In this document: piece after piece, positions 14,604-39,769 of the stretch
Layout of the letters: every line of letters begins with the position of its first letter
How positions within the stretch are numbered: position 1 is the stretch's first letter
From: Gymnodinialimonas ceratoperidinii
Lineage (GTDB): Bacteria; Pseudomonadota; Alphaproteobacteria; Rhodobacterales; Rhodobacteraceae
NCBI RefSeq assembly: GCF_019297855.1
Contig: NZ_CP079194.1
Location: 3,459,501 to 3,523,500, forward strand
Direction: 5' to 3'
Length of the DNA stretch: 64,000 nucleotides
Position numbers and translations under genes: made by a program
The notes under the pieces: model-generated
Told to the model about the DNA's origin: nothing
Database searches by the model: none
What the model saw: the letters and a program-made list of their open reading frames with translations, nothing else

Positions 14604-14818
14604 CCCCTTCAATAGCCGGAAAGCCAAGCTTCCCGGTCCCGCGCGCGTTCGTAGGATCGCCCCCCGTCAGCGAGTTTCGCCCACGGGGGCAAAACCCGTT
14701 TGGGTGTTGCCCTCGTCCGGAACGACCACTTGGGGCAATGCGCATCGGGGCTTGGGTTCGTGGGCTGCGTCCTTATCTTCAAGGGCAGACTTCCGGGATC
14801 GCGAAAGGGGCCACGCCC

Positions 14819-31661: not shown

Positions 31662-32642
31662 TTAGCCTTCGTATTCGGGCTGTGCTTCCAGCTCTTCCTG
31701 CGTGGCGTCGATGTAGACGCGCACGTCACCACCTTCGCCGCGAACGATCTGCAGTTCCTCGAAGGTCACGGCGATGGAGTGCTCGCCCAGACCAAGGAAG
31801 CCACCGATGTCGAGCACGGCGCGGTCCAGCGAACCGTCGTCGTTCAGCAGAAGCTCGCTCACTTCACCCATGTCTTCGTTGTCGGCGCCGTAGACGTTGG
31901 CACCGGTCAGGTCGTCAGCGGTCATCTCGTCGTAGCTTACGTTCTCGTAGCCATCGACTTCAACGGCGGGCATCGAGAGACGGGGACGGTCGGTTTCTTC
32001 GATCTCGACCATGGTCTCGTCTTCGGCCATCACGGCGTCGCCATCGGTCATGGCTTCGGCGTTGGCTTCGGCTTCGGCAGTTGCTTCACCGTCGGTGGAG
32101 ACGTCTGCATCGGCATCGACATCGATGTCTACGTTGTCGCCATCCATGTCGGCGTCAGCGTCCATGTCCATATCGGCGTCCATGTCCATGTCTTCGTCCA
32201 TGTCCATGCCCATCGAGGTCCGCTCGAATTCGGGGGCCTGCTCGACGTCGGCTGCGGCAGCGTTGACGACAAGGAAGAACTCGTCGGCGTCTTCACCATC
32301 GGAGACGAACTGGATCTGGTCCATGTTCACGGCAACGTCACGCTCGCCGATACCGAGGAAGCCACCAACACCAACGATCACGGACTGAACTTCGCCGTCG
32401 CGGGTCAGGATGATCTCGTTGATCTCACCGATGTCGTCCCACTCCTGCTCACCGTCTGCTTCGACCATGTCGCCGGTCTCGTTCTCGGTGACGTAGACGC
32501 GCATGCCGATCACGTCGGAGGCGTTCAGGTTCATTTCGGCGTCAAACGCCATGTCGGAAAACGGTGTGTTCGAGTGGGCATCCGCATATGCGCCGGTGGC
32601 CATTACGGATGCGGCGGCGGTGGTAATAAGAAAACGTTTCAT
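31662..32642 (-). CDS. Periplasmic double PRC-barrel protein with acidic Met-Asp linker
   Basis: A 326-residue protein. Signal peptide M-K-R-F-L-I-T-T-A-A-A-S-V-M-A-T-G-A-Y-A, then PRC-barrel 1 (about 35-140, with G-V-G-G-F-L-G-I-G-E-R-D-V-A-V), an extremely acidic linker of D-M-D-M-D-A-D-type repeats (about 165-240), and PRC-barrel 2 (about 250-326, D-I-G-G-F-L-G-L-G-E-H-S-I-A-V). The ATG at 32642 has AAGGAGA upstream; longer in-frame starts precede the promoter. An EcfG-type promoter drives it, so it is probably a general-stress envelope protein; molecular role unknown. Confidence 0.9.
   Translation of the reverse strand: MKRFLITTAAASVMATGAYADAHSNTPFSDMAFDAEMNLNASDVIGMRVYVTENETGDMVEADGEQEWDDIGEINEIILTRDGEVQSVIVGVGGFLGIGERDVAVNMDQIQFVSDGEDADEFFLVVNAAAADVEQAPEFERTSMGMDMDEDMDMDADMDMDADADMDGDNVDIDVDADADVSTDGEATAEAEANAEAMTDGDAVMAEDETMVEIEETDRPRLSMPAVEVDGYENVSYDEMTADDLTGANVYGADNEDMGEVSELLLNDDGSLDRAVLDIGGFLGLGEHSIAVTFEELQIVRGEGGDVRVYIDATQEELEAQPEYEG
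32100..32220. repeat. Short-period repeat inside the PRC-barrel gene
   Basis: Six- and nine-base units built on TCCATG, TCGGCG and TCTTCG encode the alternating Met-Asp/Ala-Asp linker. Such arrays change length by strand slippage while keeping frame. Confidence 0.7.
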
Positions 32643-32695
32643 GTTGTCTCTCCTTATGTCGAGGGACGCGTTTAGATCGCGCCTTGCATTGGAGA

Positions 32696-32720
32696 AACGG
32701 ACTCCCCGCTTGTTTGTTCC
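32696..32720 (-). promoter_or_regulatory. EcfG-type general stress promoter of the PRC-barrel gene
   Basis: On the minus strand GGAAC (32720-32716), 16 bases, CGTT (32699-32696): an exact match to the alphaproteobacterial EcfG (SigT) consensus. The expected start near 32690 leaves a leader of about 48 nt with AAGGAGA before the ATG. Confidence 0.75.
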
Positions 32721-32764
32721 CGATCCGGGGCGGCAAACCGACAGGTATATTTGTGAAAGTTGAA

Positions 32765-32789
32765 GGAACAATTTCGGCTTTAAAGCGTT
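32765..32789 (+). promoter_or_regulatory. Second, divergent EcfG-type promoter
   Basis: GGAAC (32765-32769), 16 bases, CGTT (32786-32789), again exact, pointing the opposite way from the PRC-barrel promoter and 44 bp from it. No coding gene lies downstream before a strong terminator and the convergent rpsA gene. Confidence 0.7.
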
Positions 32790-32795
32790 GGTGCG

Positions 32796-32866
32796 CGCCC
32801 GCAATTTGAATGACGTGGCACCCCTGAACGGAAAAGGCCCCGCCGTTGCCGGCGGGGCCTTTCCTA
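32796..32866 (+). ncRNA. Candidate stress-induced small RNA
   Basis: Predicted transcript of about 70 nt from the divergent EcfG promoter to the hairpin at 32833-32862. The 5' part is unstructured and contains a C-rich stretch (GGCACCCCTGAAC), followed by a 12-pair terminator stem and TTTCCT. The layout (promoter, short C-rich single-stranded region, terminator) is that of alphaproteobacterial stress sRNAs. Existence is inferred from sequence only. Confidence 0.5.
32833..32862. terminator. Bidirectional terminator of rpsA (and of the candidate sRNA)
   Basis: Perfect 12-bp stem AAAGGCCCCGCC / GGCGGGGCCTTT with a six-base loop, about 20 bases after the rpsA stop. T-runs exist on both strands (TTTTCC after the stem on minus; TTTCC on plus). 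Confidence 0.88.
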
Positions 32867-32882
32867 ATCAATGCGGGAACGA

Positions 32883-34559
32883 TCAGTCGTCCTGCTTCAG
32901 CGCTGCGCCAAGGATATCGCCGAGGGACGCGCCGGAGTCGGAGGAACCGAACTGTTCGACGGCCTCTTTCTCTTCCGCGATCTCGCGTGCCTTGATCGAG
33001 AGACCGAGGCGGCGGGACTTGGCGTCGATGTTGGTGACGCGGACGTCCAGCTTGTCACCGACCTGGAAACGCTCGGGGCGCTGCTCGGAACGGTCACGGC
33101 TGAGGTCGGAGCGACGGATGAAGGACTTCATGCCTTCGTAGTCCACCTCGATGCCGCCCTCTTCGATCGCCGTCACTTCAACGGTGATGATCGAGCCGCG
33201 CTTGACGCCTTCGATGGTCTCGCCGAAGGGATCGCCGTCAACTGCCTTGATGGACAGGCTGATGCGCTCCTTGTCGGTGTCGACCTCGGTGACGACGGCC
33301 TTCACGATGTCGCCCTTGCGGAACTCACCGATCATGTCTTCGCCACGGCCTTCCCACGTCAGGTCGGAGAGGTGAACCATGCCGTCGATCTCACCTTCGA
33401 GACCAACAAACAGGCCGAATTCGGTGATGTTCTTGACTTCACCTTCAACCTGCGTGCCCTCGGGGTGGCTCTCGGCGAACACTTCCCACGGGTTGCGCTG
33501 GGTCTGCTTGAGGCCAAGCGAGACGCGACGCTTCACGGTGTCGATCTCCAGCACCATCACTTCGACTTCCTGGGAAGTGGAAACAATCTTGCCCGGATGG
33601 ACGTTCTTCTTGGTCCAGGACATCTCGGACACGTGGACGAGGCCTTCGACACCCGGCTCCAGCTCAACAAACGCACCGTAATCGGTGATGTTCGTCACGC
33701 GGCCCGTGTGGACGGTGTCCAGAGCGTACTTGGCGGCCACGGCATCCCATGGGTCGTCCTGCAGCTGCTTCATGCCGAGGCTGATGCGGTGCGTCTCTTT
33801 GTTGACCTTGATGACCTGCACCTTGACGGTCTCGCCGATGGTGAGGATCTCTTTCGGGTCGTTGACGCGGCGCCATGCCATGTCGGTGACGTGCAGCAGG
33901 CCGTCCACACCGCCCAGGTCGACGAATGCGCCGTACTCGGTGATGTTCTTGACCACGCCGTCCACGACATCGCCTTCGTTCAGCTTGCCGATGACCTCGG
34001 CGCGCTGCTCGGCGCGGGACTCTTCAAGGATCGCGCGGCGCGAGACAACGATGTTGCCACGGCGACGGTCCATCTTGAGGATCTGGAACGGCTGCTTGAG
34101 ACCCATGAGCGGGCCCGCGTCGCGGACCGGGCGGACGTCAACCTGCGAGCCGGGAAGGAACGCAACTGCGCCACCCAGATCCACGGTGAAACCACCCTTC
34201 ACGCGGCCAAAGATCGCGCCTTCGACACGCTCTTCCGCGGCATATGCCTTCTCCAGACGATCCCAGGCGGCCTCACGGCGGGCCATCTCGTGCGACAGCA
34301 CGGCCTCGCCACGGGCGTTCTCGACGTTGCGAAGGTAGACTTCGACTTCGTCGCCGACCTCGATCGAGGGCGCTTCACCGGGATTCGCGAATTCTTTGAG
34401 TTCGACACGGCCTTCCATCTTGTAGCCGACGTCGATGATGGCCTGGCCCGCTTCGATCGCGATGACCTTGCCTTTGACAACAGAGCCCTCGTCGGGCGTG
34501 TCAATTTCGAAGCTTTCGTTAAGGAGGGCTTCGAATTCCTCCATCATGTTATTTGCCAT
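32883..34559 (-). CDS. rpsA: 30S ribosomal protein S1
   Basis: A 558-residue mRNA-binding ribosomal protein with six S1 (OB-fold) domains; the middle ones show the usual G-x-V-x-N-I-T-E-Y-G-A-F-V-D-L and G-L-V-H-V-S-E-M-S-W patterns. The start at M-A-N-N-M-M-E-E-F was chosen; an upstream in-frame extension would cover untranslated leader. Encoded after cmk in the common cmk-rpsA order, but with its own promoter between the two genes. Confidence 0.97.
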   Translation of the reverse strand: MANNMMEEFEALLNESFEIDTPDEGSVVKGKVIAIEAGQAIIDVGYKMEGRVELKEFANPGEAPSIEVGDEVEVYLRNVENARGEAVLSHEMARREAAWDRLEKAYAAEERVEGAIFGRVKGGFTVDLGGAVAFLPGSQVDVRPVRDAGPLMGLKQPFQILKMDRRRGNIVVSRRAILEESRAEQRAEVIGKLNEGDVVDGVVKNITEYGAFVDLGGVDGLLHVTDMAWRRVNDPKEILTIGETVKVQVIKVNKETHRISLGMKQLQDDPWDAVAAKYALDTVHTGRVTNITDYGAFVELEPGVEGLVHVSEMSWTKKNVHPGKIVSTSQEVEVMVLEIDTVKRRVSLGLKQTQRNPWEVFAESHPEGTQVEGEVKNITEFGLFVGLEGEIDGMVHLSDLTWEGRGEDMIGEFRKGDIVKAVVTEVDTDKERISLSIKAVDGDPFGETIEGVKRGSIITVEVTAIEEGGIEVDYEGMKSFIRRSDLSRDRSEQRPERFQVGDKLDVRVTNIDAKSRRLGLSIKAREIAEEKEAVEQFGSSDSGASLGDILGAALKQDD

Positions 34560-34866
34560 GTGGCGTCTGGTTCCTATCAATTTGATGCTGGCCGCGCGGT
34601 TGTCTCCGCCGGTCTTATGGTTGCGTCCGCGTTGTGGACATGGATTGATCCGCGACACGTCGTTGAAACGAAAGAGGGGCCGGAAACTTCCGACCCATGC
34701 CTGACCCTTCGTCCCCCGACTTATCTGCCGTATTGGACAGGCGGCGTATAGCGGGCGTCGGCCTTGTTTGCAAGGGGTGAGCCGCCGCGCCAGCCCGCGC
34801 CGGCCTGCAACCGCCCATCACGGCGGGCCGGTCGCTGCACCGGCGCCCCGGTCGGGCAGAACTGCC
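34560..34866 (-). other. 307-bp cmk-rpsA intergenic region with rpsA leader
   Basis: Holds the rpsA promoter (34745-34773) and a leader of about 180 nt. The part next to cmk (34780-34860) has GC-rich inverted segments (GCCGGCC..., GGGCCGG...) that may end cmk transcripts. No gene is seen. In other bacteria S1 represses its own leader; whether this leader does so cannot be judged. Confidence 0.5.
34745..34773 (-). promoter_or_regulatory. Promoter of rpsA
   Basis: On the minus strand TTGCAA (34773-34768), 17 bases, TATACG (34750-34745). The -10 and spacing are identical to those of the rplS promoter in this window. Confidence 0.68.
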
Positions 34867-39689: not shown

Positions 39690-39735
39690 AGTGCTCCATT
39701 GAATAAAACCCCACGCCAGGAAGCCGTTGTGGGGG
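39690..39735 (-). promoter_or_regulatory. SAM/SAH riboswitch controlling metK
   Basis: On the minus strand the P1 stem CCCCAC / GTGGGG encloses the conserved ACGGCTTCCTGGCG, followed by an A/T-rich linker and TGGAGCA, which contains the metK Shine-Dalgarno. This agrees with the SAM/SAH riboswitch, an H-type pseudoknot known from Rhodobacterales metK leaders. Ligand binding hides GGAG and shuts off translation when SAM is plentiful. Confidence 0.93.
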
Positions 39736-39769
39736 ACAGAAGGCCGCTTACGCCCCTTTGCGTCGGCAT

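Follow-up and report, generated by a model that had tools for sequence, protein, structure and literature searches.

EcfG (SigT, ECF15) is the general-stress sigma factor of Alphaproteobacteria, with an established promoter consensus. In Caulobacter it drives GsrN, a small RNA (sRNA) whose C-rich single strand pairs with mRNAs, while the sRNAs SorX and SorY of Rhodobacter are under other sigma factors. In Gymnodinialimonas ceratoperidinii we found two EcfG-type sites standing back to back, one upstream of a PRC-barrel gene and the other without a gene of its own before the convergent rpsA (Table 1). Our preferred reading, to which we give a probability of roughly 55%, is a bidirectional control region of the general stress response (GSR), in which the plus-strand site would be a genuine EcfG promoter that is kept mainly for a cis effect on the PRC promoter.

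Table 1. Features of the EcfG-type site pair and its neighbourhood (positions in the window).
Feature	Position	Strand	Basis or remark
Gene for PRC-barrel protein, Pfam PF05239 in two stretches	31662..32642	-	HMM
Putative EcfG-type promoter of the PRC-barrel gene, GGAACAAACAAGCGGGGAGTCCGTT	32696..32720	-	GGAAC-N16-CGTT
Gap separating the two -35 (GGAAC) boxes	32721..32764		44 bp
Divergent EcfG-type site, gene-less downstream, GGAACAATTTCGGCTTTAAAGCGTT	32765..32789	+	GGAAC-N16-CGTT
Predicted transcript if ended by the hairpin	32796..32866	+	Start predicted; body poorly conserved
13-bp hairpin, arms 32833-32845 / 32850-32862	32833..32862		Most likely the rpsA terminator
rpsA for ribosomal protein S1 (six S1 stretches), reading toward the plus-strand site	32883..34559	-	HMM

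The first-pass annotation, made from the sequence of the window (the whole 64,000-nt stretch analysed), had predicted that the genome encodes PhyR, NepR and EcfG, and HMM searches found all three in adjacent positions at 2.98 Mb. NepR was the single match in the genome (PF18557, 52.6 bits), PhyR scored 354 bits for NCBIfam NF006623 (cut-off 240), and an ECF sigma factor scored 325 bits for NF009198 (cut-off 270), with Pfam in agreement for the latter two. The sigma factor was read as EcfG because it lies beside nepR and phyR; what we take by eye to be a Dps-like gene was also found around NepR in this locus. Across the genus, NepR was detected in 12 of 13 genomes, the exception (G008) having a completeness of 83%.

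The two divergent copies of GGAAC-N16-CGTT were borne out at the coordinates first assigned to them, and a scan of the window for GGAAC-N15..18-CGTT gave no site beyond this pair, as had also been claimed. The accompanying argument that nine fixed bases are rare by chance did not hold: shuffled windows carried a mean of 1.67 matches at spacings of 15–18, and 49 of 100 shuffles carried at least two. The number of sites in the window, being equal to the shuffle expectation, was dropped as evidence, and since this count is at chance level, the case must rest on placement, genome-wide behaviour and conservation. Judged by their placement, by the genome-wide preference for N16–17 and by their conservation, the sites do appear to go beyond chance, and the sequence supports the identity of both as EcfG-type promoters.

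Genome-wide, GGAAC-N-CGTT was found at 78 sites with N16–17 versus 38 with N15 or N18. Among 77 sites examined (the last of the 78 was left unclassed), a crude gene caller placed 42 in intergenic regions, and 33 of these 42, with the plus-strand site of the window not counted, had a gene start on the same strand no more than 160 nt away. By eye, the genes behind the sites presumably include those for Dps, Ku, DJ-1-like and Pmp3-like proteins, a mechanosensitive channel and several PRC proteins. In the 200 bp behind each of the 42 sites, divergent GGAAC-N-xGTT matches occurred at N16 or N17 only (5 entries at 3 places), and the same 200-bp search gave no divergent match at any other spacing from 10 to 23. 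A test of enrichment against the backward-read pattern failed, the control being commoner than the real pattern over N15–18 (97+86 versus 52+64 matches) and having 46+38 versus 34+44 matches at N16–17; because the backward-read control was richer, wrong-spacing controls were used instead. At G000:C1:1927019-1927045, EcfG-type sites on both strands overlap almost entirely, one of them with a gene 45 nt on.

Within the genus, 3 of 13 genomes, namely this one (G000), G002 and G006, had a site directed toward rpsA no more than 600 bp from the end of that gene, and these are also the only three of the 8 PRC-bearing genus genomes in which the PRC gene adjoins rpsA. The plus-strand motif, for which the first-pass annotation had looked to relatives, was thus kept in two of 12 other genus members, both with the rpsA-PRC junction. 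All nine box bases were conserved at both sites in the three species, with a divergent-site spacer of 16 in G000 and 17 in G002 and G006. The gap between the sites had the same length in all three, its sequence being 38–40% identical when G000 is compared with either relative and 68% when G002 is compared with G006. The distances separating the -10 box from the hairpin were 43, 45 and 60 nt with pairwise identities of 60, 47 and 57%, and the PRC leader was 77–92% identical in the same comparison. We conclude from this small sample of three species that selection appears to act on the promoter and the spacing, and hardly or not at all on the RNA body. In G012 a relaxed forward site was kept and the divergent site was absent, and the PRC homologues of G001, G007, G010 and G011 had no divergent site and, over the 500 bp before the assumed start, no forward site. 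The absence of forward sites at these four homologues, and of the site behind rpsA from all but 3 of 13 genomes, speak against our preferred reading.

The same restriction to 3 of 13 genomes would be expected if the plus-strand site were a non-functional chance match, as would the chance-level count in the window, and some of the intergenic matches in the genome must indeed be chance. Nevertheless, the box bases and the gap length were retained in three species while their surroundings changed, and divergent sites were enriched at N16–17 alone in the 71 PRC upstream regions described below, so that we regard such a coincidence as very improbable.

The plus-strand site had originally been read as the promoter of a dedicated stress sRNA, which as a trans-acting RNA of about 70 nt would be transcribed by EcfG, end at a hairpin shared with rpsA and pair with mRNAs through a C-rich strand. 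Like GsrN, the locus has its own exact EcfG-type promoter before a gene-less stretch: as had been stated, no plausible reading frame precedes the hairpin, and the promoter is kept in the two relatives. Two plus-strand ORFs (32788-33141 and 32871-34751) were rejected as antisense shadows of rpsA. The predicted fold of the transcript (-36.8 kcal/mol) consists mainly of the hairpin and leaves the C-rich ACCCCUGAAC unpaired. The block CGCGCCCGC directly after the -10 box was common to all three species, and by BLAST the body with the hairpin aligned to G002 for 85 nt at 76% identity, which together leave room for selection on the RNA.

The body itself, whose conservation in related genomes had been proposed as a check, was nevertheless poorly kept and variable in length, and by eye the C-rich part was not retained at the same place in G002 or G006; an RNA with a conserved C-rich pairing loop, as in GsrN, was therefore not found across the three species. 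A search of 61 genomes at E 0.001 gave, away from this junction, no match that spanned the RNA body, and a search of the genome contigs for related loci gave 4 loci with 46–48% identity. Rfam gave nothing at gathering score for positions 32640-32900, the best sub-threshold hit being a minus-strand match to CC2171 across the hairpin (25.3 bits; gathering score 75). Likewise, the two paralogous PRC regions of G283 (L188 and L190) keep both EcfG sites with a 23-bp gap and diverge from 10 nt beyond the divergent site onward. Elsewhere in the window, Rfam matched a SAM-SAH riboswitch at 39692-39738 on the minus strand (57.1 bits) and an ffh sRNA family at 14646-14697 on the plus strand (56.2 bits).

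The hairpin lies where a 12-bp terminator had been annotated, although by our reading its stem is 13 bp long. The T-run after it is short on both strands, and a terminator scan with a rule of 5 T in 8 gave no site there. In G002 and G006 the hairpin is more stable in the rpsA direction than in the plus direction (-26.6 versus -21.0 kcal/mol), with full pairing toward rpsA and one mismatch in the plus direction. By sequence the hairpin most likely belongs to rpsA, and it may be active in both directions. Given a poorly conserved body of variable length that ends at a probable rpsA terminator, a dedicated sRNA was not supported, and we consider a trans-acting RNA from this site unlikely.

The same short T-run on the plus strand, together with the weaker plus-direction hairpin of the relatives, would suit a transcript that reads past a weak terminator into rpsA under stress and lowers S1 synthesis by antisense. 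In line with this, rpsA runs toward the site in all three species (G000, G002 and G006), and codon scores indicated convergent reading frames after orphan sites in G141, G241 and G294. However, the convergent gene is not the same between genera, and 10 of 13 genus genomes had no site facing rpsA within 600 bp, making an antisense function less probable still than an sRNA.

A better candidate for an EcfG-driven sRNA than the window RNA, as far as its sequence features go, is a SorX/SorY-like locus at about 120.9 kb (L007:1526-1399, minus strand; G000:C1 120,918-120,791). There, GGAAC-N17-CGTT begins 7 nt past the stop codon of a gene that we take by eye to encode an OmpR-type response regulator, and is followed by a stretch of about 97 nt with a strong terminal hairpin and six T. 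Rfam scored this stretch just below the gathering score of 46.6 for SorX (RF02784; 43.0 bits, E 1.8e-9) and at 29.8 bits for SorY (RF02651; gathering score 111); its fold was not unusual by itself (z -1.05). A likely EcfG-controlled RNA of this kind would link the general stress response to an sRNA type that in Rhodobacter is under other sigma factors.

We then turn to the PRC gene, which encodes a protein that, by eye, begins with a signal-peptide-like segment and has an acidic middle part of low complexity. A homologue (E <=1e-15) was found in 88 of 295 family genomes. A NepR match (E 0.001) was present in all 88 of these and in 51 of the 207 others; conversely, 88 of 139 NepR-positive and none of 156 NepR-negative family genomes carried a PRC homologue. 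We collected 71 PRC upstream regions (35 from one set of loci and 36 from a second), leaving out matches that did not begin near the first residues of the protein. Within 400 bp upstream, 30 of the 71 had a strict forward site (20 with N16, 10 with N17) and 16 had a strict divergent one (6 with N16, 10 with N17), while each of the remaining spacings from 8 to 25 gave 0 or 1. In the window, a site of this GGAAC-N16/17-CGTT type likewise lies 5' of the PRC gene and is conserved, as expected from sequence for the EcfG regulon. From the co-distribution with NepR and these forward sites, the PRC gene has the look of a core general-stress gene and probably belongs to the core of the family's general stress regulon, in agreement with the stress envelope protein proposed in the first-pass annotation; with 88 genomes versus 0, it is a marker of the general stress system. 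The divergent site is, in these sequences, a recurring companion of the PRC forward site, and some of the divergent sites carry a gene of their own.

The distances between the paired sites suggested a helical phasing. This pattern was noticed post hoc, and all of its p values are optimistic because related sequences are not independent. In 53 PRC regions with a forward site (xGTT allowed; G171 and G241 entered with relaxed forward sites and gene starts assigned by inference), 16 divergent sites lay within 150 bp behind the forward site, versus two for six wrong spacings together; orphan divergent sites lacking a forward site, such as that of G294, fall outside this set. The gaps of the 11 gene-less sites were 22, 23, 23, 23, 23, 34, 44, 44, 44, 56 and 65 bp, and those of the five gene-bearing sites 23 (G211), 66, 71, 98 and 112 bp. 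Orphan status rests on one hand decision and a crude gene caller that called the antisense frame 32871-34751 and missed or misjudged some sites: automatic sorting gave 12 orphans, and G211 was moved to the gene-bearing class by hand for a glgC-like start about 38 nt on. A scan of periods between 10 and 11.5 bp gave, for the 11 gene-less gaps, a best period of 10.7 bp with R 0.96. R was also 0.96 for the 12 orphans as automatically sorted, and 0.76 at 10.7 bp for all 16 sites unsorted. In the same scan of the 11 gaps, p was ~0.0002 when each lineage contributed a single gap (n=8) and ~0.01 when each distinct gap class did (n=5).

Family-wide, strict pairs with gaps of 5–66 bp, searched with a pattern blind to N17-N17 pairs, numbered 70 in 56 family genomes, 54 of them NepR-positive, and showed weak phasing (best-of-periods p 0.023; p 0.0085 at 11 bp). 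G263 and G292 are the sole two of these 56 genomes with a divergent pair and no NepR match. A crude rule sorted 71 pairs read from loci into 40 gene-gene, 27 one-sided and 4 with no gene, several of the one-sided pairs probably having genes past the 160-nt limit. The one-sided pairs were phased (R 0.49, p 0.0014 at 11 bp; R 0.54, p 0.0002 at 10.5 bp), and the 40 gene-gene pairs weakly so (R 0.21, p 0.18; fixed-phase V 0.15, p 0.09). When the period and phase of the PRC set were imposed, 21 one-sided pairs judged not to be PRC gave V 0.39 and p 0.005; the phasing of the one-sided pairs was known beforehand, so this test is not fully independent. Two more PRC-type pairs (34 and 23 bp) fit the phase, of which L284 adjoins a PRC match and L288 is presumed by eye to be of this type. 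At class level, 25 of the 26 distinct pairs outside this genome (G338, a near-copy of G563, was dropped) gave p 0.02 for a period preset to 11 bp and 0.015 for 10.5 bp, with smaller p values on a restriction to gaps of at least 9 bp that was chosen afterwards; several of these pairs resemble gene pairs beside phyR/nepR/ecfG. A held-out test on degenerate sites yielded one case only, and its wrong-spacing controls scored equally high.

Divergent EcfG pairs recur in NepR-positive genomes (L217-L267, L279-L298), and what we take by eye to be DUF1328-like and ElaB-like genes formed such a pair ten times, with gaps of 13, 22, 23, 34, 34, 35, 36, 41, 47 and 58 bp. For these ten (L230, at 24 bp, left out), R was 0.59 with p 0.025 at 10.7 bp and p 0.05 at 10.5 bp.

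Together, these patterns are consistent with a cis role of the plus-strand site. In this model, assembled from the sites, stress genes, conservation and spacing read in the sequence, PhyR would remove NepR from EcfG, and the freed EcfG-RNA polymerase would transcribe the secreted PRC-barrel gene leftward. The plus-strand site would act as a second EcfG promoter with a short transcript running into the rpsA terminator, the start points on both strands being predicted. Conservation of its -10 box makes transcription from the plus-strand site likely, and tells against a pure binding element because such an element would not need a -10 box. What is selected would probably not be the RNA sequence and more likely the cis effect on the PRC promoter, behind which the plus-strand site lies by about four whole helical turns; for gene-less divergent EcfG sites at PRC genes of other genera the distance is about two to six turns. 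Phase would matter if two polymerases or sigma factors interact or act on common DNA, whereas an sRNA gene would not need it, and for this reason we favour the cis role. A more specific version, in which gene-less divergent EcfG sites act in cis and are set in helical phase, the window pair being the four-turn case, is tentative and in our estimate rather doubtful; a second EcfG-polymerase on the same DNA face might then tune the promoter through contact, looping or supercoiling. If the phasing holds, gene-less divergent sigma-factor sites would be regulatory DNA and not sRNA genes, which would change the annotation of orphan promoters; if it fails, the locus is still likely a core general-stress member in this family.

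Compared with the described systems, the window RNA shows no likeness to SorX/SorY and has no CUCCCUGUUG stretch of the kind present in the Rfam alignments. It resembles GsrN in an EcfG-type promoter before a short gene-less stretch ending in a hairpin, and differs in that its body and C-rich part are poorly conserved and the hairpin is most likely that of rpsA. The DUF1328-like/ElaB-like pairs share the two EcfG sites back to back, but pairs of that type have genes on both sides (40 of 71 pairs by the crude call) and the window has one. With known EcfG/SigT promoters, the window sites agree in their boxes, in the spacing of 16–17, in the presence of EcfG, NepR and PhyR and in the genes behind the genome-wide sites, and to this arrangement the window adds a second, gene-less divergent site at approximately whole helical turns.
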